Assembly: GCA_018402765.1 (NCBI GenBank)
Contig: JAGYIE010000003.1
Coordinates: forward strand, 310,001 to 374,000
Direction of reading: 5' to 3'
DNA from: Vicingaceae bacterium
Lineage (GTDB): Bacteria; Bacteroidota; Bacteroidia; Flavobacteriales_E; Vicingaceae
Length of the DNA: 64,000 nucleotides
Numbering within the stretch: position 1 is the stretch's first letter; each line of letters opens with the position of its first letter. Below the pieces are notes generated by a model. The model was not told the origin of the DNA. It saw only the letters and a program-made list of their open reading frames with translations, and ran no database searches. Below are positions 6,234-22,217 of this stretch, piece after piece. The translations under genes and the position numbers were made by a program.

Positions 6234-8930
6234 ATGGCATTTGATTTTAAGAAAGCACTACCACACATTATTGCAATTCTCTTATTTTGGTCACTTGCTG
6301 CGGTCTATTATTATCCTGCTTTACAGGGTTATGCGGTAAAGCAAAGCGATATTTCTCAACACAAAGGAATGTCTAGTGAGATTACCTCTCATAAAGATCT
6401 GTTTAATGAAGAGCCTCTTTGGCAAGGAAATATGTTTGGGGGTATGCCTTCTTATCAAACATCTCGTGTAGAGTATGATGGAAACATCTTTGGATACATA
6501 TATGCTGGTATTAATAAGCTAATACCGCTACCAATCAGTGTTACCTTCCTCTACATGCTGGGATTTTATCTGTTGATGCTGTGTATTGGATTGAATCCAT
6601 GGTTATCGGTCTTTGGTGCAATAGCTTTTGGTTTTTCTTCATATTTCTTTATTATAATTGAAGCGGGGCATAACTCTAAGGCATTCGCTATTGCGTTCAT
6701 GGCTCCCGTATTAGGAGGTGTTCTTTTAGCCTATCGTAAAAATTCACTTTTAGGCATGTTAATCATTGCAATTTTTATGTCTCTTGAGATTTATGTAAAT
6801 CACCTTCAAGTAACGTATTACTTAGGTTTCCTAGTTGCATTAATCATTCTTTATTATTTAATTCAGTTTGTTCGAAATAATGAGAAAATGAAATTTATTA
6901 AAATTTCATCTCTTGTTATTGTTGGATTTGCAATTGGCGTATTTACAAATAGTGGAAATTTATTAACGACCTATGAGTACTCAAAAGCGTCAACTCGCGG
7001 TAAATCAGAGTTGACTATCAAACCACCAAATCAACAAACAGATATTATTGCTAAAGAGGGCTTAGATCGAGATTATATAACTCGATGGAGTTACGGAAAG
7101 CAAGAAACGTTTTCATTGTTAATTCCAGATGTTAAAGGTCCAGGGTCAGGTGCCATTATAGCGGATCAAGATGAAGTAGAGCGATTAAGAAGAGAAGATC
7201 CTAACTTCTTTAATTATTTGGTGGAAGAGTATCAAAAAAGAGGAAACATCGTCAATACTTATTGGGGAGACCAGCCAATTACTTCAGGCAATGTTTATGT
7301 TGGTGCAATTGTTTTTCTTCTTGCTTTCTTAGCGATGTTTTTCGTGAAGGATACGATTAAATGGCCTCTATTTATTATGTTAATCCTATCTATATTCTTA
7401 GCATGGGGAAAGAATATGATGTGGTTTACTGATCTTTTTATAGATTATTTTCCTATGTATAATAAGTTTAGAGCAGTAACTATTATTATGGTAATTGTGG
7501 AACTAATATTCCCTTTATTGGCTGCACTTTTCCTTTTAGAGTTTATTAATCGTAAAGCTGATTTTATTAGTCACCAAAAATCTCTTTATAAGGTAGTTGG
7601 AGGTTTTTTGCTCCTGCTGATTATTGTTGCATTTACTCCTGATACTTTCTTTGATTTTACATCGGCTAATGAGGAGGCTCAATTTTCACAACAATTATCT
7701 CAATCGAATCCTCAAATAATTAATCAGCAACGTGATGCGTTGATAGATTATAGAATTGATGTTTTCCAAACTAGCGCATTTAGAACTTTGGGATTCATTG
7801 CTATTGGATTAGTTCTACTTTTATTATTTATAAGAGATAAAGTAAATTGGAAAGTATTAGTTGGAAGTTTAACAGTTTTAACATTAATAGATTTAAGTTT
7901 TAATGATAAGCGATTTATCAATAATGAAAAGCTTCCTAATGGAGGCGGTTATGCAATGTGGGAGAAAAAGGATAAAACAGTCACTCCCTACGCAGCTGGA
8001 GTCGCTGATAAAGAAATATTGAAAAGAGAACTTTCAAAGAATCCTTCTATTGGAAATGAGATCCAAACAATTAGTAGTTTGTACCAGCAAAATGGTGAGA
8101 GGCTTACCGCAGCTAAGAATGAATACATAGCTTTTACAACTTTAATGAGAGAAACGCATTACAGAGTGCTGAATACTACTTCACGATTAGATGCTGATGC
8201 TAGAACTGCCTACTTTCATAAAACTCTAGGCGGATATCATGGAGCTAAAATGAAAAAATATCAGGAATTGGTAGACTTTCATTTGGCAAAAGAGCAGTAT
8301 ACGCTGCAACAAGCAATAGCACAAGGAGGACAGTCTTTAGCAGAATCGTATCTTCCTCAATTGAATATTACCAATATGCTTAATGCTAAGTATATTATTG
8401 GAATGACTAACACGAAACAAGGTCAGGGTACAGTATTAGTTGAAAATGAATTTGCATACGGTAATGCTTGGTTTGTTGAGCAGATAGAGCAAGTTGAGAA
8501 CTCAGACTCCGCAATGTTAGGTTTGTCTAAAAATAATTTAAAAAAAGTGGCTTTGGTGACTCCTGATGAAGCTATTATCACTAATAGCTTTAATCCTACA
8601 ATCAATGATCAGATTAAATTGTTAGATTATTTGCCAAATAAATTGACTTATCAATATTCAACTACTGATAACCAATTTGCAGTATTTTCTGAAATCTTTT
8701 ATGAAAAAGGTTGGAAAGCATTTATAAATGGAAAACAGCAAGCAATACACGAAGTTAACTTTTTATTGAGAGGTATTGAATTGCCAAAAGGTCAAGGTGA
8801 GTTAATTATGATTTTTCAACCCGACTCTTTTAATATTGGAGTAATTGCATCTTATGTTGGAACAGGCATAATTTTTTTACTACTAATACTGGTATTGATT
8901 CAATCTAAAAAGAAAAATGAAATGGCTTAA
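6234..8930 (+). CDS. YfhO-family multi-pass membrane protein (GT-C-like)
   Basis: An 898-residue integral membrane protein. The first membrane helix lies near residues 9-28, about a dozen further hydrophobic segments occupy roughly 100-560, and one closes the protein at about 865-890. A large soluble region lies between about 570 and 860. This matches the YfhO family (Bacteroidota versions are near 800-900 residues). The family is distantly related to GT-C glycosyltransferases, and a Gram-positive member glycosylates lipoteichoic acid. The substrate here is not known. It may act on a lipid-linked sugar at the outer face of the inner membrane, consistent with the glycan genes that follow. It is the last gene of the carB-DUF4834-yfhO run and meets a leftward gene 12 nt later. 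Confidence 0.82.
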   Translation: MAFDFKKALPHIIAILLFWSLAAVYYYPALQGYAVKQSDISQHKGMSSEITSHKDLFNEEPLWQGNMFGGMPSYQTSRVEYDGNIFGYIYAGINKLIPLPISVTFLYMLGFYLLMLCIGLNPWLSVFGAIAFGFSSYFFIIIEAGHNSKAFAIAFMAPVLGGVLLAYRKNSLLGMLIIAIFMSLEIYVNHLQVTYYLGFLVALIILYYLIQFVRNNEKMKFIKISSLVIVGFAIGVFTNSGNLLTTYEYSKASTRGKSELTIKPPNQQTDIIAKEGLDRDYITRWSYGKQETFSLLIPDVKGPGSGAIIADQDEVERLRREDPNFFNYLVEEYQKRGNIVNTYWGDQPITSGNVYVGAIVFLLAFLAMFFVKDTIKWPLFIMLILSIFLAWGKNMMWFTDLFIDYFPMYNKFRAVTIIMVIVELIFPLLAALFLLEFINRKADFISHQKSLYKVVGGFLLLLIIVAFTPDTFFDFTSANEEAQFSQQLSQSNPQIINQQRDALIDYRIDVFQTSAFRTLGFIAIGLVLLLLFIRDKVNWKVLVGSLTVLTLIDLSFNDKRFINNEKLPNGGGYAMWEKKDKTVTPYAAGVADKEILKRELSKNPSIGNEIQTISSLYQQNGERLTAAKNEYIAFTTLMRETHYRVLNTTSRLDADARTAYFHKTLGGYHGAKMKKYQELVDFHLAKEQYTLQQAIAQGGQSLAESYLPQLNITNMLNAKYIIGMTNTKQGQGTVLVENEFAYGNAWFVEQIEQVENSDSAMLGLSKNNLKKVALVTPDEAIITNSFNPTINDQIKLLDYLPNKLTYQYSTTDNQFAVFSEIFYEKGWKAFINGKQQAIHEVNFLLRGIELPKGQGELIMIFQPDSFNIGVIASYVGTGIIFLLLILVLIQSKKKNEMA

Positions 8931-8942
8931 AGAATTAACAGG

Positions 8943-10571
8943 TCATTCTTTATCTTTAATTGTTTGTTCAATTCTCTTAGAGGTTTCTCCATCGATAGAG
9001 TGAAAGTATCGCTCGATAAATAGGTCATATTGTACTTGATTTATTTCCGAGGAGAGATTTGACAAAACACTAAAAAGTTTTTCTTTATTGTCTATTTCAA
9101 TTCCCACGCCTTCTTTAATGTATCCAACTATATCTTCTTTGAAATAGTCTAGAATAAGTAAGGGTTTGTAGTATTCAATAAATTCTGCACCTACAGTAGA
9201 GTATGCTGTAATTAGAAGGTCACACTTTTTAAACTGTTCGTCCAATGTTACCCCTCTTTCAATTTTATAATTTGTGAAGCCAATCTCTTCAGCTAAATCA
9301 CAAAAATAACTATCGTCTTTTTCGTTTGGATGTGGTCTAATTATTAAGAAAAAATCTTTTCCTAATTGATTAAATGTTGAGAAAATATCCATTAGGTAAT
9401 TATCTCTAATAATTTTGTTCGGGATCGGTTGAGATGCGAAAAGAGCTATTTTAACTGAGCTATCTAAATTTTTTGTTTTGTTGGTGATTATTTGCTTCCT
9501 TAGACTACCTACCGCTTTAATTTGATTCGGTGGGTAGCCACATTTTCTTGTTAATACTTCATTATAATATTCCCCCCATGTAAAGGTAATATCGGGCAAA
9601 AGAGGTTTCTTGTTATAATCCCCATAATCGTAGGCAAAATGATTCTTATAAATAGCTCCATGTTGAATCGCATATACTTTCACGTTGTTTAATTTTGCAG
9701 CGTATTGGATAACTTTCTGCTGTGGACTATTTTCATCACTAATAAAGAATGATTTTATTTTTCCTTTTTTGAATAGGTTATAAAAAGAAATCATTCGCAT
9801 ATATAGAATGCAAAAATATAGATGGTTAGAAAAAAATAAGTTGCAAATTTCTCTTTCGCTTTCACTTGTAAGCTCTTTTTTTAAATCAAGCTCGAGTTGT
9901 TTTGTTTTTCTGAAAAACCTAATTATTGCTAAATGAGTAGAAGGCTTAATTAACGATTTAAATAACAGTGAATCTGAATTTAAATATTCCTTCAATAATT
10001 TCTGTTTGGGTAGCTCTTTTTTTAGATCAAACAAACTTCGGATCTTTAAAATGGGATAAACCTTAGTCAATTCACCAAATAAGCCCTTTGTTGAATAGCC
10101 TTTGTATTTTTCGTCATGTATTATTATCGTACCTTTTAATTCAATATTGTTAAATACACCTAAAATAATGTATACTAATTCTTTAGAGAGCCGTTTGACT
10201 GATGTAATCTTACTTGAAGTTGTTGATTTATAGTTGTAAAAATCTCCTTCAGGATATACTTTTTTAAAATGTAACTCGGTAGCATTGCTTAACCTTCTTT
10301 CAATTAATCTAAAATTTGTTCTGAAATGCTCTAAAAACCATATATTAATACCTATCTCTTTTTCTAATTCAATAAAGTGGCGGTCAAAAGAGTTATAGAA
10401 ACTGACAACATCAGCTATGCTCTGTCTTTTAATAGACTCTTCTTTCTCTTTAGGTAACTTAAAGGCTTGAATTTTTTTATTTTTCATTTCAATTCTCGAA
10501 AAGAGAGTCTCGTTTTGAAATTTTTCCGGATTAAAGTTATTTAAATCGCCTTTTAGAAATATCTTTTTCAA
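8943..10571 (-). CDS. GT-B-like surface-carbohydrate transferase
   Basis: Up to 542 residues. The C-terminal half resembles GT-B enzymes of capsule and CDP-glycerol or polysialyl transferase type: a short QHGA motif, an RPHPNE motif, and a late segment with LLITAYSTVGAEF followed by KPLLILD, typical of the nucleotide-sugar binding half. The N-terminal 250 residues are not recognised. No signal peptide or membrane segment is seen, so it is probably cytoplasmic. It is divergent from the nonulosonic acid operon beginning at 10668, which makes it a candidate for transferring the finished sugar; that role is inferred. The start is uncertain: the longest frame opens with TTG at 10571 and the first ATG is at 10487. 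The 28 residues between look protein-like. Confidence 0.7.
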   Translation of the reverse strand: MKKIFLKGDLNNFNPEKFQNETLFSRIEMKNKKIQAFKLPKEKEESIKRQSIADVVSFYNSFDRHFIELEKEIGINIWFLEHFRTNFRLIERRLSNATELHFKKVYPEGDFYNYKSTTSSKITSVKRLSKELVYIILGVFNNIELKGTIIIHDEKYKGYSTKGLFGELTKVYPILKIRSLFDLKKELPKQKLLKEYLNSDSLLFKSLIKPSTHLAIIRFFRKTKQLELDLKKELTSESEREICNLFFSNHLYFCILYMRMISFYNLFKKGKIKSFFISDENSPQQKVIQYAAKLNNVKVYAIQHGAIYKNHFAYDYGDYNKKPLLPDITFTWGEYYNEVLTRKCGYPPNQIKAVGSLRKQIITNKTKNLDSSVKIALFASQPIPNKIIRDNYLMDIFSTFNQLGKDFFLIIRPHPNEKDDSYFCDLAEEIGFTNYKIERGVTLDEQFKKCDLLITAYSTVGAEFIEYYKPLLILDYFKEDIVGYIKEGVGIEIDNKEKLFSVLSNLSSEINQVQYDLFIERYFHSIDGETSKRIEQTIKDKE

Positions 10572-10643
10572 AAGATTGTAATTGAGAGTAATTAAAAATT
10601 CAACTTGTATTCAGGTCAATAAGGAATGTATTTATTAATTACA

Positions 10644-10651
10644 TACCTTTG
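10644..10651 (+). promoter_or_regulatory. Candidate Bacteroidota -7 element for the nonulosonic acid operon
   Basis: TACCTTTG matches the TAnnTTTG -7 consensus and ends 16 nt before the neuA ATG, giving a short leader. No TTG box sits 19 nt upstream, so support is moderate. Confidence 0.45.
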
Positions 10652-10667
10652 AATAAAGATATATAAA

Positions 10668-11357
10668 ATGAGTAAAACCATAGCTTTCATACCTGCAAGA
10701 GGAGGCAGCAAATCTATAAAATTAAAAAATATAAAGCTATTTTATGGTAAACCATTAATACAATGGAATATTAATGAATTAATAGCATTAGATCAAATTG
10801 ATGAGATCATAGTAGCAACAGACAGCCAAGAAATAGAATCGGCAATTGAACCAAATCCAAAGGTTAAAATTTATCATCGGGAAGCTGAAAATGCGCAAGA
10901 TTGTTCTTCTACTGAATCGGTAATGCTGGAATATATTAGAAATGCTAAATTGAATGATGATGATGTATTTATTTTAGTTCAAGCTACATCACCCTTCACA
11001 CATAAAAGCGATTTTGTGTCAGGCTTTACACTATTTGAAAAAGAAGATAATGATTCTGTTTTGGCAGTAGTTCCTTTTAAAAGACTTGTATGGTCAGAAG
11101 ATAAGAAACCATTAACTTTTGACTTAGATAAAAGACAAAGAAGGCAAGATTTTGATACTTATTACCTTGAAAATGGTGCTTTTTATATAAATACGGTAAA
11201 AAATATTGTAGAAAATAAGAGTAGAATTTCAGGTAGATTTGGATTCCATATTATGCCAGAATATACTGCACTAGAAATGGATGAACTAATTGATTGGGAT
11301 TTTGGAGAAATTCAAATGAAAAAACTTATAGAAAATAAAGAATTTATACCTAGTTAA
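10668..11357 (+). CDS. neuA: CMP-nonulosonic acid cytidylyltransferase (NeuA/PseF/LegF type)
   Basis: Activates a sialic acid-like nine-carbon sugar with CTP to give the CMP-sugar donor. The 229-residue protein opens with the nucleotide-binding signature IPARGGSKSIKLKN (residues 7-20), followed by the QATSPF motif of the family and a late EYTALEMDELIDWDFGE segment with the acidic metal-binding residues. The length is typical. The sequence cannot tell whether the substrate is neuraminic, legionaminic or pseudaminic acid. It is first in a run of five genes with 1-4 nt overlaps or direct abutment, and its TAA shares one base with the neuB ATG, indicating translational coupling. Confidence 0.9.
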   Translation: MSKTIAFIPARGGSKSIKLKNIKLFYGKPLIQWNINELIALDQIDEIIVATDSQEIESAIEPNPKVKIYHREAENAQDCSSTESVMLEYIRNAKLNDDDVFILVQATSPFTHKSDFVSGFTLFEKEDNDSVLAVVPFKRLVWSEDKKPLTFDLDKRQRRQDFDTYYLENGAFYINTVKNIVENKSRISGRFGFHIMPEYTALEMDELIDWDFGEIQMKKLIENKEFIPS

Positions 11358-12403
11358 TGAAATTTAATAGATCAATAAAAATACTGAACAAAGAAATTTC
11401 AAATTCTTGTCCTACTTTCATAATTGGTGAAGCAGGCGTTAATCACGGTGGTGATATGGCCATAGCAAAACAATTAATAGATGTTGCGGTAGAAGCAGGC
11501 GTAGATGCTGTAAAGTTTCAGGCCTTTCGCACTGATGAGCTGATTATTGCTGATGTTGAGAAGGCTCCATACCAAAGGTTAACAACCTCTGAACAGGAGT
11601 CTCAATCGGATATGTTAAGAAAGTTGGAATTAAAGAAAGAACAATACATTGAACTGAAAGATTATTGTGAATTAAAGGGAATTTTATTTCTTATTACACC
11701 ATTCGACGAAGTTAGCTTAAATGAACTCGAAGAAATAGGTGTATTTGCCTATAAAGTAGCTTCCACTGATACAACTAATTTACCTTTCCTTAAACGAATT
11801 GCTAAAACAGGAAAACCTATTTTTCTTTCTACAGGGATGACTTATTTAAACGAGGTAAGAGCCGCTTTAGAAGAGATTCATCCTTTTAATAAAAATGTTA
11901 TATTAATGCAGTGCACAGCCAATTACCCTATTAAGGATAATGAAGCAAACCTCAATGTTATTAATACCTTTAAAGAAGAATTTGATGTTTTGATTGGCTA
12001 TTCAGATCATTCAGTTGGTATTGGGGCTACACCCTACGCAGTCCCAATGGGGGCATGTTTGGTTGAAAAGCATTTTACTATTGATAGAAATGCTCAAGGC
12101 CCCGACCATTTAGCTTCTTTAACCCCTGATGAGTTAAAAGGATTGGTAAAGGAGATAAGAAGAATTGAGTCATATCTGGGTTCTTATATAAAATCGCCAA
12201 CAGACTCTGAGTTGCAAACGAGAAACTCCTTGCAAAAACGTCTAGTAGCGAAGAAAGAAATTAAAAAAGGCGAATTGTTTAGTGAAAGTAATTTGGTAGC
12301 TAAACGAACCGGTGGAGTTGGTATTTCACCTCTCGATTATAAAAATATAATTGGAAAGAAGGCTGAGATAGATTTTGCAATAAATTCTATTATCCAGCTA
12401 TGA
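11357..12403 (+). CDS. neuB: Nonulosonic acid synthase (NeuB family)
   Basis: Condenses phosphoenolpyruvate with a six-carbon N-acetylated sugar to form a nonulosonic acid. The 348-residue protein has the NeuB TIM-barrel signatures GEAGVNHGGD near residue 23, VKFQAF, GYSDHSVG and EKHFTIDR followed by GPDH, the last two supplying metal and PEP contacts. The C-terminal 65 residues (RLVAKKEIKKGE onward) form the SAF/antifreeze-like domain that covers the active site of the partner subunit. Length is normal. It overlaps neuA by one base and the next gene by four (ATGA). Whether it is NeuB, LegI or PseI cannot be settled by eye. Confidence 0.92.
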   Translation: MKFNRSIKILNKEISNSCPTFIIGEAGVNHGGDMAIAKQLIDVAVEAGVDAVKFQAFRTDELIIADVEKAPYQRLTTSEQESQSDMLRKLELKKEQYIELKDYCELKGILFLITPFDEVSLNELEEIGVFAYKVASTDTTNLPFLKRIAKTGKPIFLSTGMTYLNEVRAALEEIHPFNKNVILMQCTANYPIKDNEANLNVINTFKEEFDVLIGYSDHSVGIGATPYAVPMGACLVEKHFTIDRNAQGPDHLASLTPDELKGLVKEIRRIESYLGSYIKSPTDSELQTRNSLQKRLVAKKEIKKGELFSESNLVAKRTGGVGISPLDYKNIIGKKAEIDFAINSIIQL

Positions 12404-13005
12404 AGAAGGTTTCAATTATAGGGGCAGGAGGTCATACCCGAACGCTGATTAATCTTTTAACGTTAAATAGCATACCTGTAAATGCTATTTACGATGATAA
12501 TCAAATAAATAATGCAGAGCGAATTTCTGGCATACCTGTTTTACATTTAGCTTCTATATCTGAAGATGAAATAGTGTTAATCAGCAAAGGAAATGTACCT
12601 GACAAATTTTTTTATACTCAAAAGTATTCAAAACAATTAATGGAGGAGAATATAATACATCCTAAGGCATTGATAGAGACCTTTCAAATTGGGTTGTTTA
12701 ATCAAATATCTCCTTTGGTTTATATTTCCAATACCTCGATTGTAGGAAGTCATAATATAATCTATTCAGGTTCAGTTTTAGAGCATGAATCAGAAATAGG
12801 AGATTTTAATATTATTACTGTTAATGTATCAATTTGTGGAAGAGTTAAGATTGGAAATAGATGTTATCTAGGTGCTGGAAGTGTTATCTTACCAAATATT
12901 ACCATTTGTGACGATGTTATAGTTGGAGCAGGAGCAGTTGTAACTAAAAATATATCGACCAAGGGTACTTATGTTGGAACTCCCGCTAAAAATATAGAAT
13001 TATGA
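12400..13005 (+). CDS. neuD: NeuD-like sugar O/N-acyltransferase
   Basis: A 201-residue acyltransferase of the NeuD/PglD/VioB group. Residues 1-60 form the small Rossmann-like sugar-nucleotide domain (VSIIGAGGHTRTLINLL). From about residue 95 hexapeptide repeats of the left-handed beta-helix are visible, including GAGSVILPNI and VGAGAVVTKNI, ending in VGTPAKNI. In known clusters such proteins acetylate a nonulosonic acid or its 4-amino precursor. Given the aminotransferase three genes on, N-acetylation of an amino sugar is a reasonable alternative to O-acetylation. It overlaps both neighbours by 4 nt (ATGA). The symbol reflects family resemblance only. Confidence 0.75.
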   Translation: MKKVSIIGAGGHTRTLINLLTLNSIPVNAIYDDNQINNAERISGIPVLHLASISEDEIVLISKGNVPDKFFYTQKYSKQLMEENIIHPKALIETFQIGLFNQISPLVYISNTSIVGSHNIIYSGSVLEHESEIGDFNIITVNVSICGRVKIGNRCYLGAGSVILPNITICDDVIVGAGAVVTKNISTKGTYVGTPAKNIEL

Positions 13006-13859
13006 TTTATGTTTCTAGTTCTTGCATTAAGTCAGATAGTATAGAGCAATCTATACGGGCACTCGCTGCAGAAGGATTTAAGAATATTGAGTTATCAGGC
13101 GGTACAAGTTACAGAGAAGATACACTAGATTTACTACTTAGTCTTAAAAAGGAATTGGATCTTAATTATTTACTCCACAACTATTTTCCACCACCAAAGG
13201 AGCCTTTTGTTTTAAATTTGGCATCTTTAGATGATGAAGTTCACACAATGACCCTGAACCATATTAAAAAGGCTGTTGATTGGTCAGTTAAACTTGCTGC
13301 AGAGAAATTTGCGTTTCATGCCGGTTTTTTGTTGAATATTCCATTAAGTCAAATTGGAAAAAAAATAGACAAAATCGGGCTATTTGATGAATTATACGCG
13401 TACCGTCGTTTTAACGAAAGTTTAATAGAAATTCGCAATTTCGCAAAAGAAAGAATTGACTTATACATTGAAAATAATGTATTGAGTACAGATAATTTTA
13501 AATCCTTTAACTCAATTGATCCTTTCTTTTTTACTTCTGAGAAGAATATGGGTAAAGTTGAGTGGTCTAAAGATTTTAATTGTTTATTAGATGTGGCTCA
13601 TCTAAAGGTTAGTTGCCAAGCTCTGTCTTTAAATTTTCAAGAACAATTGAAGGGCTTATATAAAAAAACAGATTACATTCATATAAGTGATAATAATGGT
13701 TTAGAAGATTCAAATCAAGTGGTAACTGAAGAAAGTGATTTATATGAACAACTTAAATCCATTTGGGTTAAAAATAAAACGATTACAATAGAAGTCTATT
13801 CAGGTATGGATGATATAAAAACTACTTATAACTTACTGCATAATTTAAATACGAATTAA
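13002..13859 (+). CDS. Sugar isomerase/epimerase-like TIM-barrel protein (AP_endonuc_2 family)
   Basis: A 285-residue protein resembling the xylose isomerase-like TIM barrels. Candidate metal ligands appear in the expected order: an early IELSGG strand, HAGF near residue 106, YIENNV near 157, LDVAH near 198, HISDNNG near 225 and TIEVYSG near 263. The family includes sugar-phosphate isomerases, epimerases and inositol-pathway enzymes, so the exact reaction is unknown. It sits inside the nonulosonic acid operon, overlapping the acyltransferase by 4 nt and abutting the aminotransferase. No NeuC/LegG-type hydrolysing 2-epimerase is encoded nearby, so it could supply the hexosamine-like precursor for NeuB; this is inference. 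Confidence 0.7.
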   Translation: MIYVSSSCIKSDSIEQSIRALAAEGFKNIELSGGTSYREDTLDLLLSLKKELDLNYLLHNYFPPPKEPFVLNLASLDDEVHTMTLNHIKKAVDWSVKLAAEKFAFHAGFLLNIPLSQIGKKIDKIGLFDELYAYRRFNESLIEIRNFAKERIDLYIENNVLSTDNFKSFNSIDPFFFTSEKNMGKVEWSKDFNCLLDVAHLKVSCQALSLNFQEQLKGLYKKTDYIHISDNNGLEDSNQVVTEESDLYEQLKSIWVKNKTITIEVYSGMDDIKTTYNLLHNLNTN

Positions 13860-15260
13860 ATGGAATCAATATTTAAAGTAGGTCAAAGCCTTAAAGTCCT
13901 ATTAGGTTCAATTAATCAAAAACCATATGGTACTGCTTTTGTAGAAGATGAAAATAACAAATTAATAGGAATCGTAACTGATGGGGATTTTAGAAGAATG
14001 CTCTTAGATGGTAAGGAGCTAACTGATACTTTAGAAAAATCGGATTTAAAAACCTTTGTATCCGCGAAGGAGGGTGAAGACTTTGATCAACTGCTAAAGA
14101 AAACCAATAATAAAATACACATTATACCTATAGTTAATAGTCAAGGAGAATTGATTGATTACTTTGAGTTTAAGCATCAAACAAAATTTACTCCGGTGGC
14201 TGAACCTACTTTAGAAAATAAAGAATTAGAATATTTATTAGATGCTTTTTCATCAACATGGATATCAAGTAGAGGTAAGTATATTGATAGATTTGAAGAA
14301 GAGTTTTCTACTTATTGCGGAGTTAAGCATGGGGTAGCTACCTCTAATGGAACTGTAGCTATTCACTTGGCTCTATTAGCATTAGGCATTAAAGAAGGTG
14401 ACGAGGTAATTGTTCCTGACTTAACTTTTGCTGCCACAATAAATGCTGTCCTCTACATAAAAGCAATACCTGTTATTGTAGATATAGACCCAGATACCTG
14501 GACTATTTGCCCGAAGGAAATAGAAAAGGCCATAACGCCAAAAACGAAAGCTATCATACCTGTGCATGTGTATGGACAGCCTTGTCAAATGGATCAGATA
14601 ATGGATATCGCTCATAGGAATAATTTAAAAGTTATTGAAGACTGTGCTGAGGCGCACGGAGCAGAGTTCAATGGAAAAAGAGTGGGAAGTTTTGGTGACA
14701 TTTCTACCTTTTCATTTTTTGCAAATAAGATAATTACGACAGGAGAGGGCGGGATGTGCGTTACCAACGACTTGGCGCTAGATATGCAAATGAGAAAACT
14801 TCGTGACCATGGCATGAATAAAGAGAAAAGGTATTGGCATGATGAAATTGGTTTCAACTATCGAATGACTAACTTACAGGCTGCGATAGGCTGCGCTCAG
14901 ATTGAACAAATTGATCAAATTTTAAAAAGAAATAATCAAATAGAAGAAGATTATATTAATTTCTTGTCCGACTTAAACTTATTTGATTGGCAAAAAACAT
15001 TTGAAAATAGGAAAAAGGTTGTTTGGTTGATGTGCTGCACTACCAATAAAAGAGAAGAAGTTATGAAGGCTTTATCGTCAAATAATATCGATGTTAGACC
15101 ATTCTTTTATTGTTTGTCTGAAATGCCTATCTATAGTGAGTATACATTTTCAAACAGAAACTCAACTCGTATTTCTAAAATAGGATTGAATTTACCAACC
15201 GTTAAGAATATTGACTACACTAGGGTTAAAGAAATCTTAGGAACAATAATAAAGCATTAA
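13860..15260 (+). CDS. CBS-pair domain fused to DegT/DnrJ/EryC1-family aminotransferase
   Basis: A 466-residue fusion. Residues 1-105 form a pair of CBS motifs: the first has GIVTDGDFRRMLLDG, the second IIPIVNSQGELIDYFEF. The rest is a complete PLP-dependent sugar aminotransferase, with AEPTLENKELEYLL and STWISSRGKYI at its start, Asp261 in EDCAEAHGAE and the PLP lysine Lys290 in SFFANKIITTGEGG. Such enzymes make 4-amino sugars on nucleotide-sugar keto intermediates. In legionaminic acid clusters a CBS pair is instead attached to a nucleotidyltransferase (PtmE), so this fusion is unusual. The CBS part may bind an adenosine nucleotide and regulate the enzyme. It starts directly after the preceding stop. 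Confidence 0.88.
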   Translation: MESIFKVGQSLKVLLGSINQKPYGTAFVEDENNKLIGIVTDGDFRRMLLDGKELTDTLEKSDLKTFVSAKEGEDFDQLLKKTNNKIHIIPIVNSQGELIDYFEFKHQTKFTPVAEPTLENKELEYLLDAFSSTWISSRGKYIDRFEEEFSTYCGVKHGVATSNGTVAIHLALLALGIKEGDEVIVPDLTFAATINAVLYIKAIPVIVDIDPDTWTICPKEIEKAITPKTKAIIPVHVYGQPCQMDQIMDIAHRNNLKVIEDCAEAHGAEFNGKRVGSFGDISTFSFFANKIITTGEGGMCVTNDLALDMQMRKLRDHGMNKEKRYWHDEIGFNYRMTNLQAAIGCAQIEQIDQILKRNNQIEEDYINFLSDLNLFDWQKTFENRKKVVWLMCCTTNKREEVMKALSSNNIDVRPFFYCLSEMPIYSEYTFSNRNSTRISKIGLNLPTVKNIDYTRVKEILGTIIKH

Positions 15261-15280: not shown

Positions 15281-16087
15281 ATGAGTGATTTTTCGCATAG
15301 AATAGTACAGAATTTAAAGAATGGTACATTAATTTCAAATGGACTTACTGCCATAAAAAATAGAATATTAAAGTATACTGTAAACAATAATCTTTTTTAT
15401 GTTTTTGATGCTAATAGAGTAAGAACCAAAAAGTATCTATGCGATATTCAACCAATTGATGAGAATCACTATTTGGCAGGTAATTATTATCTAGACAAAA
15501 GAGTAAATATTGATAAGAATTCACTTGTTTACTCTTTAGGTATTTTAAATGATATTCGCTTTGATCGCTATTTATCAAAGCAGTTTGGATGTTCCATTTT
15601 TATGTATGATCCGACTCCTCTTTCTATTGAATTTATGGGAAATCAGAAGGATGATAACTTTAAGTTTTTTCCTTATGGTGTTTGGACTGAAGAAACAACG
15701 TTGACTTTTTATGAACCTAAATATGGGGGGTCATCATCAATACATGTTGATGGGGATAAAGGACAAATGAACTCTTTTGATGCTAAATGCTTTACCATCA
15801 AAAAACTAATGGAGGATAATGAACATCAACATATAGATCTTTTTAAGGCTGATATTGAAGGGGCTGCATTGCCTATTTTAGAACAAATGATAGATCAACA
15901 CATATTTCCTACAGAAATTGTTGTGGAATTTGAACGGCCAAGGTCAGGAGAGTCAGAAATAAATGATTTCTTTTTAAGGGTAGATGCAGTTAGAAATAAA
16001 TTAAAATTGGAAAATTATAAGGAATATCAGATACCAAGGGTCCACGCAAAGTATTATTCCATAGAATTTTTATTTGTTAAAATCTAG
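15281..16087 (+). CDS. FkbM-family methyltransferase
   Basis: A 268-residue protein with the FkbM-like class I methyltransferase pattern: a SLGILNDIRFD segment at the SAM-binding loop position, an acidic strand (MYDPTP) and the characteristic DLFKADIEGAALPIL motif near residue 185. FkbM relatives O-methylate sugars or polyketides. In this setting a glycan O-methyltransferase is likely, though the substrate is unknown. It follows the aminotransferase by 20 nt on the same strand and is probably the last gene of the operon. It meets the leftward dioxygenase gene 9 nt later. Confidence 0.72.
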   Translation: MSDFSHRIVQNLKNGTLISNGLTAIKNRILKYTVNNNLFYVFDANRVRTKKYLCDIQPIDENHYLAGNYYLDKRVNIDKNSLVYSLGILNDIRFDRYLSKQFGCSIFMYDPTPLSIEFMGNQKDDNFKFFPYGVWTEETTLTFYEPKYGGSSSIHVDGDKGQMNSFDAKCFTIKKLMEDNEHQHIDLFKADIEGAALPILEQMIDQHIFPTEIVVEFERPRSGESEINDFFLRVDAVRNKLKLENYKEYQIPRVHAKYYSIEFLFVKI

Positions 16088-20733: not shown

Positions 20734-21204
20734 ATGAAGTTTACCTTATTACTCATTAATAAATCGAAGGAAAATTATATTGACAAAGGCTTTAAAGAGT
20801 ATGAAAGCAGATTAAAGCATTATGCGAAATTAGAGACTGTTGTTCTTGAATTGCCCAAAAAGCTAAAATTTTCATCACAGGAATTACAAAAGATTGAAGA
20901 AGGCAAGCTGCTCATAAATCAATTAGGAGTAAACGATTTTTTGGTATTGTTAGATAATCACGGTAGCTCAGTAACTTCAGAAAGTTTTGCAAAAGAAATT
21001 CAAATGTGGCAAAACCGAGGCCTTTCTTCAGTTTGCTTCGTGATTGGTGGGCCATTTGGGTTTAGTGACGAAGTTTACAAACGAGCTAATTACCAACTAA
21101 GTCTTTCGAAAATGACGTTAACTCACCAAATGGTTAGATTATTTTTCTTGGAACAACTTTACAGGGCGCATACTATCATAAAAGGGGAGAAGTATCACCA
21201 TTAG
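20734..21204 (+). CDS. rlmH: 23S rRNA pseudouridine-1915 N3-methyltransferase
   Basis: SPOUT-class methyltransferase that modifies pseudouridine 1915 in helix 69 of 23S rRNA after subunit joining. The 156-residue length is typical. The knotted SAM-binding part is visible as FLVLLDNHGS near residue 70 and CFVIGGPFGFS near 104, with the conserved C-terminal segment LTHQMVRLFFLEQLYRAHTIIKGEKYHH. The last three bases overlap the stop of the convergent galE gene. Confidence 0.95.
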   Translation: MKFTLLLINKSKENYIDKGFKEYESRLKHYAKLETVVLELPKKLKFSSQELQKIEEGKLLINQLGVNDFLVLLDNHGSSVTSESFAKEIQMWQNRGLSSVCFVIGGPFGFSDEVYKRANYQLSLSKMTLTHQMVRLFFLEQLYRAHTIIKGEKYHH

Positions 21205-22217
21205 TTGCCTTCGTACAAATATAGCTGCCATTTCCATGCACTTAACATCATTTCTTCTAGGCCAAATTTTGGCTGCCAACCCAATAATTTATACGCTTTT
21301 GAATTATTCGCATAAACGGCTTCTACATCCCCTTCTCTTCTGTCAACTATTTCATAGTTGAGTGTTAACTTATTTACTTGTTCAAAGCTCTTAACTACCT
21401 CTAAAACAGTTACACCATTTCCTGTTCCTAGATTAAAAATATCTATTGGTTTATCCATTTTTTCAAGATAATTTAATGCTAATATATGCGCTTCTGCGAT
21501 ATCACTAACATGAATATAATCCCTCACACAAGTACCATCTTTTGTATTGTAATCTCCACCAAATATTTGAAGCTTATCTTTTAGTCCCGCAGCTGTTTGT
21601 GTTATGAATGGAACTAAATTGTTTGGACGCGCAGATGCAGGCTCACCATTTAATCCGGATTCATGTGCTCCTACAGGATTAAAGTATCTTAGTATAATTA
21701 CCTTCAATAATTGATGTGCTTTTACGGTGTCTGCTAATATCCCTTCGCCAATAAACTTAGTCTGGGCATAGGGGGATTCGGGAATTCCTAAACTTGATTT
21801 TTCAGTAACAGGTAATTCCTCAGAATTTCCATAGACTGAACATGAAGATGAAAATATAAATTTATGACAGCTAAATATCTGACAACATTCCAATAAGTTA
21901 ATAAGAGAATCTAAATTATTTCGATAGTATAAAAGTGGATTTGCTAAAGATTCTGGGACTGATTTAAATGCAGCAAAGTGAATAATACTTTCAATTTTTT
22001 CCTGTTCAAATAGTAGTTTACAAGAATTCTGATCGGTTAAGTCAATTGGGTAGTGTTTAACTACAACCCCAGTTATTTTCTCAACTCGTTCATAAGTGGA
22101 TACGTTTGAATTACTGTAATTATCTACAGAAATAAGGTCTCTATATCCTTTATTTATAAGTTCTATCAACGTGTGAGAACCAATATAACCCGACCCTCCG
22201 GTAACTAATATACTCAT
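21201..22217 (-). CDS. galE: UDP-glucose 4-epimerase
   Basis: Extended short-chain dehydrogenase that interconverts UDP-glucose and UDP-galactose (or the N-acetyl forms). The 338-residue protein has the NAD-binding TGGSGYIGSH motif (residues 6-15), SSSCSVYG with the catalytic Ser region, and the active-site Tyr and Lys in SPYAQTKF. RYFNPVGAH follows in the substrate domain, and the late RREGDVEAVYAN segment is typical of GalE. It supplies sugar nucleotides, possibly for the glycan cluster 3 kb upstream. It is divergent from the Gfo/Idh/MocA gene. Confidence 0.93.
   Translation of the reverse strand: MSILVTGGSGYIGSHTLIELINKGYRDLISVDNYSNSNVSTYERVEKITGVVVKHYPIDLTDQNSCKLLFEQEKIESIIHFAAFKSVPESLANPLLYYRNNLDSLINLLECCQIFSCHKFIFSSSCSVYGNSEELPVTEKSSLGIPESPYAQTKFIGEGILADTVKAHQLLKVIILRYFNPVGAHESGLNGEPASARPNNLVPFITQTAAGLKDKLQIFGGDYNTKDGTCVRDYIHVSDIAEAHILALNYLEKMDKPIDIFNLGTGNGVTVLEVVKSFEQVNKLTLNYEIVDRREGDVEAVYANNSKAYKLLGWQPKFGLEEMMLSAWKWQLYLYEGN

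Follow-up and report, generated by a model that had tools for sequence, protein, structure and literature searches.

A conserved TIM-barrel gene module of Bacteroidota as a candidate route from GDP-mannose to nonulosonic acids

A compact five-gene block at positions 10668-15260 of a 64,000-nucleotide stretch of the genome of a Vicingaceae bacterium (assembly GCA_018402765.1, contig JAGYIE010000003.1, positions 310,001 to 374,000; hereinafter the window) combines neuA-, neuB- and neuD-like genes with those for a xylose-isomerase-like TIM barrel and an aminotransferase. Vicingaceae is a family of the Bacteroidota, and the block is a conserved module that recurs at 26 loci. The chances seem to us about even that it specifies a nonulosonic acid pathway starting from guanosine diphosphate (GDP)-mannose, in which the TIM barrel would remove GDP. 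The case is built on gene content, conservation, the lack of matches to models of known pathway enzymes, the presence of gmd in three operons, similarity to perosamine synthetases, and conserved residues; every catalytic step, above all that of the TIM barrel, and the product are predictions from these. Genome surveys recognise the known nonulosonic acid pathways by NeuC, LegG or PseG, so that a cluster devoid of all three would be missed or misnamed: here the nearest NCBIfam call for the aminotransferase is LegC, and the NeuB passes the N-acetylneuraminate synthase model.

Gene content of the block

The five open reading frames are contiguous on the plus strand; the first three junctions are overlaps of 1, 4 and 4 nucleotides and the last is a direct abutment, in agreement with the initial annotation, which had described a compact block joined by overlaps of 1-4 nucleotides or abutment.

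10668-11357, plus strand: neuA-like CMP-nonulosonate cytidylyltransferase (CTP_transf_3, 1.5e-20; PseF model 114 bits, below its cut-off of 205.7)
11357-12403, plus strand: neuB-like nonulosonate synthase (PF03102, 4.6e-87, with a SAF domain; TIGR03569 404.9 bits, above its cut-off of 399.65)
12400-13005, plus strand: neuD/PglD-type hexapeptide acyltransferase (Hexapep and PglD_N; TIGR03570 147.0 bits, just below its cut-off of 160.8)
13002-13859, plus strand: xylose-isomerase-like TIM barrel (AP_endonuc_2, PF01261, 4.6e-10, passing the gathering threshold with 40.0 bits against 31.1; no NCBIfam match)
13860-15260, plus strand: DegT aminotransferase (PF01041, 2.2e-122; TIGR04181 362.7 bits, below its cut-off of 420) with an N-terminal CBS domain (9.2e-7) that had previously gone unmentioned

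Known pathway genes in the genome

The genome (3.10 Mb, 16 contigs, 99.78% complete) was searched with models of the known pathway enzymes. Its single NeuB match is that of the block (11357-12403). NeuC or LegG homologues elsewhere in the genome, which the initial annotation had named as the finding that would count against it, did not emerge over the cut-off. The NeuC/LegG model (TIGR03568) yields two matches on another contig, of 86.5 and 56.4 bits against a cut-off of 235.9, both of which are non-hydrolysing WecB proteins over the cut-off of that family (397 and 312 bits versus 210). There are 12 LegB (TIGR04180) matches, none above the cut-off of 475 bits, and the best of them scores higher on the TviC and GalE models. 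A Gmd over the cut-off (598.6 bits) lies on a different contig from the block (C9:173167-174186). The PseG model gave no match in this genome. In the window itself, the only sugar-nucleotide enzyme of the dehydratase or epimerase kind noted is a GalE over the cut-off at 21201-22217. Thus, as far as models can see, the block is without a known epimerase or hydrolase, and the flanks are, as previously described, free of a dehydratase and of NeuC-, LegG- or PseG-type genes. The suggestion that the missing steps lie elsewhere in the genome is partly right, in that it holds for the likely dehydratase, Gmd.

Phyletic spread and conservation

A single-sequence search with the TIM protein across the phylum recovered 3 of 395 genomes, own included, while a family profile detected it in 10 of the 46 genomes of the order and an 11-row profile in 16 of the 395 genomes sampled from the class (3 already known from earlier searches). 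As the profile found more, absence in the single-sequence searches is weak evidence. A further relative is encoded on an Azospirillum plasmid (L031), amid acetamidino-modification genes, bringing the total to 26 loci, in 25 Bacteroidota genomes and this plasmid (L015 and G426 are counted once). A second plasmid search, with the protein of L016 as query, added only a weak Haloarcula match (6e-4). No match was obtained against phages or PHROGs, and none of the 211 stretches picked out by the family profile pattern in viral contigs is a relative.

A NeuB gene accompanies the TIM gene at all 26 loci, within 1 kb in 25 and at 4.9 kb in Azospirillum. An aminotransferase of the window's type overlaps the TIM gene or lies within 100 bp of it at 24; the contig ends at one of the other two (L180), and the second (L179) is a true exception. 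No NeuC-like gene of at least 120 bits is present at any of the 26 loci, in stretches of up to 11 kb per side (less at contig ends), and none of the 12 TIM-bearing genomes searched has a NeuC over the cut-off. PseG was likewise never found over the cut-off in 17 genomes, these 12 and five for comparison with pseudaminic (Pse)-like clusters. The recurrence of the NeuB, TIM and aminotransferase set in distant Bacteroidota and in Azospirillum places the block beyond chance association; it is a real conserved module. Since the Vicingaceae genome has no NeuC or LegG over the cut-off and no PseG match, and the TIM barrel is a fixed partner of NeuB and nearly always of the aminotransferase, it is the TIM barrel that most plausibly supplies NeuB with its substrate, by a route unlike the three known ones. 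To that extent the earlier proposal that it feeds NeuB by a different route stands; the non-nucleotide precursor then envisaged is taken up below.

NeuB was found in 24 of 48 genomes tested (46 from the order, together with G134 and G297), including all 12 with the TIM gene. Other NeuB genomes of the order carry Pse-like clusters (L137-L141) or clusters that, by eye, contain a KdsC-like phosphatase (L144-L146, L149).

Evidence for a GDP-linked precursor

At three loci gmd lies inside the operon, namely L016 (G297), L017 (G134) and L175 (G655), with scores of 577, 576 and 569.8 bits, respectively, all above the cut-off of 415. Of these three genomes, G134 (a single contig, 100% complete) and G297 (97% complete) were among those searched for Gmd at 1e-60, and in both the sole match is the one in the nonulosonate cluster. 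G655 is again a single contig (97% complete), and its locus is the clearest gmd-carrying one, with a NeuB 62% and a TIM protein 46% identical to those of the window:

6527-7576: gmd
7590-8636: neuB
8629-9246: neuD
9243-10109: TIM barrel
10096-11214: aminotransferase
11230-11946: neuA

At L174, gmd is 6.9 kb off, beside a GDP-fucose synthase. Gmd over the cut-off occurs in all 12 TIM genomes and also in 44 of all 48 tested; being so common, its presence alone says little, and only its place is informative.

The best solved matches of the aminotransferase are perosamine synthetases (5e-97; PDB 3dr7 and 3bn1 are named for that pathway), compared to 4e-34 for 2fn6, which we take to be PseC, although this ranking alone is not a fair contest, as no LegC entry was recognised in the PDB list. 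The alignment with perosamine synthetase covers residues 112-458 and includes the shared motifs TTGEGG and YRMTN. On the LegC model (TIGR04181), the window's enzyme (362.7 bits) scores like the gmd-linked aminotransferases of L056 (366.7) and L054 (371.4) and unlike the LegC of a legB-legC-neuC cluster (506.6), which counts against a LegC identity. It also falls outside the clade of three legionaminic-type (Leg) references (support 100/100); in a first tree, the Leg enzymes, with that of L055 included, form a clade with support of 96/95. At 44 columns that separate two gmd-linked from three Leg-type enzymes, the gmd-like state prevails in each of the 24 TIM-linked aminotransferases (15-24 columns versus 6-11), the window's enzyme having 20 gmd-like, 9 Leg-like and 15 other columns. 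This test replaced an earlier one (13 gmd-like, 1 Leg-like, 3 other) that was circular, with two TIM-locus enzymes among its references, and that left out six distant or truncated aminotransferases of the first tree. All 24 are 40-50% identical to the gmd-linked and 30-38% to the Leg-type enzymes. By columns and identity, the leaning of the 24 TIM-linked enzymes toward the gmd-linked type is moderate.

The lengths of the 24 aminotransferases fall into two classes, 21 long (at least 464 residues) and three short (363-372 residues), and the short ones are exactly those of the three loci with gmd in the operon. Pfam detects the CBS domain in nine of nine long versions tested and in none of the three short ones; the other 12 were compared by length. 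A simple reading is that the CBS domain would sense nucleotides and regulate the enzyme where Gmd is shared with other pathways. A separate CBS-aminotransferase, 47% identical to that of the window, is encoded on a Sinorhizobium fredii plasmid (L053:9869-11359), in a stretch with no NeuB match and with neighbors of heptose-kinase type by eye.

Given gmd in three operons and the perosamine-synthase-like aminotransferase, the precursor of the NeuB substrate is most likely GDP-linked. The reading with the best support is a feed from GDP-mannose by way of a perosamine-type aminotransferase, and we regard it as probable. The non-nucleotide precursor suggested earlier is accordingly disfavored, also because the five genes of the window's block leave none spare. 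UDP-ManNAc supplied by WecB and cleaved by the TIM barrel was also considered, the Vicingaceae genome having two WecB proteins, but G134, a TIM-bearing genome in one complete contig, shows no match to that family at 1e-15, and this candidate was rejected as a general answer.

The acylation step

NeuD or a GNAT acyltransferase is found near the TIM gene at most loci, and at 6 of the 26 the GNAT is fused to the TIM barrel (L017 by Pfam; L180-L184 by alignment over 418-422 columns). At L048 (8199-8960, G432), a formyltransferase (Pfam 5.6e-25) lies between NeuB and the TIM gene, in the place of NeuD; its nearest models, ArnA-type and dTDP-4-amino-4,6-dideoxyglucose formyltransferase, are matched below cut-off, and the aminosugar of this locus may be N-formylated. 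That one position is filled by acetyl- or formyltransferases points to acylation of a 4-amino sugar next to the TIM step.

The TIM barrel and the NeuB active site

The TIM family profile reaches MJ1311 first (4e-13) and then, weakly, endonuclease IV (1e-4). Eight residues are invariant in all 26 sequences, namely H59, H106, E157, D197, H200, H227, D236 and E264, and these presumably correspond to eight of the nine metal ligands of endonuclease IV; N238 is present in 25. In the alignments, H106, D197, H200 and H227 pair with endonuclease IV, and H59, D236, N238 and E264 with MJ1311. A multi-metal site that cleaves phosphoesters would suit the removal of GDP. The protein has no match to the UDP-N-acetylglucosamine (UDP-GlcNAc) 2-epimerase family in Pfam or NCBIfam, and seems to be an uncharacterised enzyme standing where known pathways use others. 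GDP removal is the most economical, if unproven, assignment for it.

In PMC7371886, the column near sugar C2 is given as Gly in neuraminic (Neu) and Leg synthases and Phe in Pse synthases, and the N184 column as Asn or Tyr in Neu, Tyr in Leg and Ser in Pse synthases. The window's NeuB, which passes the NeuB/NnaB model, has Thr137 at the first of these columns and Ala188 at the second; it has no Phe at the C2 column and scores 245.8 bits on the PseI-type model, below the cut-off of 340.25. Some Leg-type sequences in our alignment themselves break this rule, with Thr or Ser at 184 and, at L148, Met at the C2 column, and the two columns lend weak support to an altered substrate.

Proposed pathway and alternatives

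In the proposed pathway, Gmd, encoded elsewhere in this genome and in the operon in some relatives, would turn GDP-mannose into GDP-4-keto-6-deoxy-mannose, which the CBS-aminotransferase would convert to GDP-perosamine. The NeuD-like enzyme (a GNAT elsewhere, a formyltransferase at one locus) would N-acylate the 4-amino group, and the TIM barrel, through its endonuclease-IV-like multi-metal site, would remove GDP to give free N-acetylperosamine. As this sugar already has the manno configuration, no 2-epimerisation would be required. NeuB would then condense it with phosphoenolpyruvate, and NeuA would activate the product with cytidine monophosphate (CMP). The predicted product is a 7-acetamido-3,7,9-trideoxy nonulosonic acid with a hydroxyl at C5, i.e. 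legionaminic acid with the 5-amino group replaced by hydroxyl. If true, this would make GDP-mannose a substrate pool for nonulosonic acids and add a new activity to the fold of isomerases and endonuclease IV, and the predicted sugar could be sought directly by mass spectrometry.

A number of observations weigh against this pathway. The window's own operon is without gmd, and the Gmd of this genome adjoins a GDP-L-fucose synthase (L052) and so has another job. In the first aminotransferase tree, a supported branch (95/92) unites L017 and both gmd-linked references with the Leg-type enzymes and excludes the group of the window. A second tree, with 15 of the 24 TIM-locus enzymes, those above 400 residues cut to the last 368 and the CBS enzymes of L053 and L055 left out, neither rejects nor shows a clade of TIM-linked and gmd-linked enzymes (p-AU 0.239). 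The C2 column varies between subgroups of the TIM-locus NeuBs, with Thr in 9 and Gly in 5 (14 of 26 aligned). For the TIM barrel, the ninth ligand position is Asn in the 25 sequences and His in MJ1311; the second endonuclease IV segment of the pairing alignment is insignificant alone (i-Evalue 150); and the nearest folds by Foldseek and VIA-align include tagatose/psicose epimerases, YcjR and xylose isomerases besides endonuclease IV, although the structure model is weak (pLDDT 60.6, from a two-row alignment) and such hits do not decide function. At L179 (5152-11536, G690), the TIM, NeuD and NeuB genes occur without a perosamine-type aminotransferase; they are accompanied by a nucleotide-sugar dehydrogenase fused to a CBS domain, an epimerase/dehydratase and a PseC-like aminotransferase, implying that GDP-perosamine cannot be the TIM substrate at every locus. 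No acyltransferase match lies in the stretch around L176, and the nearest NeuD at L174 is 3.8 kb away. Finally, the absence of PseG is weak evidence: the model also gave no match in four of the five comparison genomes with Pse-like clusters, and weak partial matches occur in three of the 12 TIM genomes (G409 at 2e-8, in a frame of 68 residues where a contig ends; G297 at 7e-7; G432 at 3e-5).

The same GDP-mannose feed could be combined with a TIM barrel that acts as an epimerase or isomerase on the sugar, GDP being removed by an enzyme outside the operon. This we judge unlikely. The epimerases and isomerases among the best fold matches are in its favor, as is the metal site of such epimerases, whose four residues are all contained in the conserved set. 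However, the loci would then be without a GDP-removing enzyme, while it is the TIM gene that defines them, and in the profile search endonuclease IV comes up ahead of any characterised epimerase.

Equally improbable is a route of legionaminic type whose parts are scattered and which starts from UDP-GlcNAc: a PglF-like dehydratase would be encoded elsewhere, the CBS-aminotransferase would act as LegC and NeuD as LegH, and the TIM barrel would take the part of LegG as hydrolysing 2-epimerase. The genome does encode a PglF-like dehydratase (L020; 185 bits on the PseB model, cut-off 407.75), the aminotransferase has the LegC family as its best NCBIfam model, below cut-off, and NeuB passes its NeuB/NnaB model. 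Against this, the three operons with a 4,6-dehydratase beside the block carry gmd and not LegB, the aminotransferase behaves as gmd-like on the LegC model and outside the Leg clade, and the TIM barrel is unmatched to the UDP-GlcNAc 2-epimerase family. Very unlikely is a TIM barrel that acts after NeuB or on a GDP-sugar for another purpose, such as a tailoring epimerase, with the NeuB substrate from a separate source: L179, with TIM, NeuB and NeuD in another sugar-nucleotide context, would accord with it, but the GNAT-TIM fusions, the position of the TIM gene between NeuB or the acyltransferase and the aminotransferase at most loci, and G134, where neither a NeuC-family match at 1e-15 nor a PseG match, and hence no other known source of the NeuB substrate, was found, speak against it.

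The GDP-mannose pathway with GDP removal by the TIM barrel might, in its widest form, constitute a fourth route to CMP-nonulosonic acids, with a metal-dependent TIM-barrel nucleotide-sugar hydrolase, a new class of C5-hydroxyl sugars, a distribution over several Bacteroidota families and Azospirillum, and CBS regulation where Gmd is shared with GDP-fucose synthesis. For this fuller claim we hold the chances to be somewhat short of even.

Neighboring genes and related loci

Two genes flank the block in the window:

8943-10571, minus strand: divergent neighbor with weak similarity to CDP-glycerol glycerophosphotransferase (PF04464, 6e-6)
15281-16087, plus strand: FkbM-type methyltransferase, downstream and outside the core (PF05050, 6e-7)

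The former occupies the same position beside the block in near relatives (L043, L044, L046, L047), and its product is a possible user of the sugar. The methyltransferase, for which no match is listed at the other TIM loci compared, is a possible tailoring enzyme. Promoter and terminator scans gave no excess over shuffled sequence.

In G395, a member of the window's genus, the chromosomal place of the block, adjoined by CarB, YihY and NadC homologues, is taken by a cassette (L143:6948-10395) of NeuB and a 542-residue fusion protein, one half of which is NeuA and the other PseG-like (119 bits against a cut-off of 153.55, E 3e-34). Nonulosonate cassettes seem to replace one another at this site, as though one hydrolase type could be traded for another. 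G427 has a second, decayed copy of the block (L147, on C10), in which pieces of NeuB and NeuA are about 70% identical to those of the window and the TIM match carries several stops. A second cluster in G426, a relative from the window's family, encodes LegB, LegC, a nucleotidyltransferase, a NeuD-like protein, NeuB and a further, divergent protein similar to NeuB (L148:5715-13713); this genome (84% complete) has no NeuC match at 1e-15 despite its Leg-type cluster. Beside the TIM block at L048 (4500-7153), L050, L172, L173 and L179 lies a row of a further NeuA, a dihydrodipicolinate-synthase-like protein (by Pfam at L173, by eye at the others) and another NeuB, which is divergent (identity about 30-35%).

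Comparison with known systems

Our searches of open-licence full texts turned up no description of this route, which is not proof of its absence in print. PMC12925313 names GDP-perosamine and CMP-legionaminic acid as separate products.

The proposed pathway is closest in its logic to that for CMP-legionaminic acid, with which it would share transamination of a 4-ketosugar, N-acetylation, freeing of the sugar, condensation by NeuB and activation with CMP. That pathway, too, is known to use a GDP-linked precursor: a 2009 study cited in PMC7371886 reportedly described such a pathway (LegB, LegC, LegH, LegG, LegI, LegF) in Campylobacter. In contrast, the system described here has no LegB or LegG over the cut-off, Gmd and a perosamine-type aminotransferase would supply the aminosugar, the TIM barrel stands in the place of LegG, and the predicted product bears a hydroxyl rather than an N-acetyl group at C5.

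With the CMP-pseudaminic acid pathway (PseB, PseC, PseH, PseG, PseI, PseF) the resemblance would lie in a separate hydrolase that frees the nucleotide-bound 4-aminosugar ahead of a NeuB-type synthase and, at some TIM loci, in a GNAT like PseH. The TIM barrel is, however, not of the PseG family, the operons with a dehydratase have Gmd rather than the inverting enzyme, and NeuB is without the Pse-type Phe. Compared with the N-acetylneuraminic acid pathway, there is no NeuC over the cut-off to feed ManNAc, yet NeuB still passes the NeuB/NnaB model.

The GDP-perosamine pathway has Gmd and a highly similar aminotransferase in common with the block, as well as the subsequent N-acylation; there the GDP-sugar is destined for a polymer, whereas here it would feed a nonulosonate synthase. 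O-antigen-type export genes lie alongside at the gmd-linked locus L056. As for the endonuclease IV/MJ1311 branch, the operon partners of the TIM barrel are sugar enzymes and not those of DNA repair, and its ninth ligand position is Asn rather than His, but the family profile matches this branch and eight of the nine ligand positions are kept.

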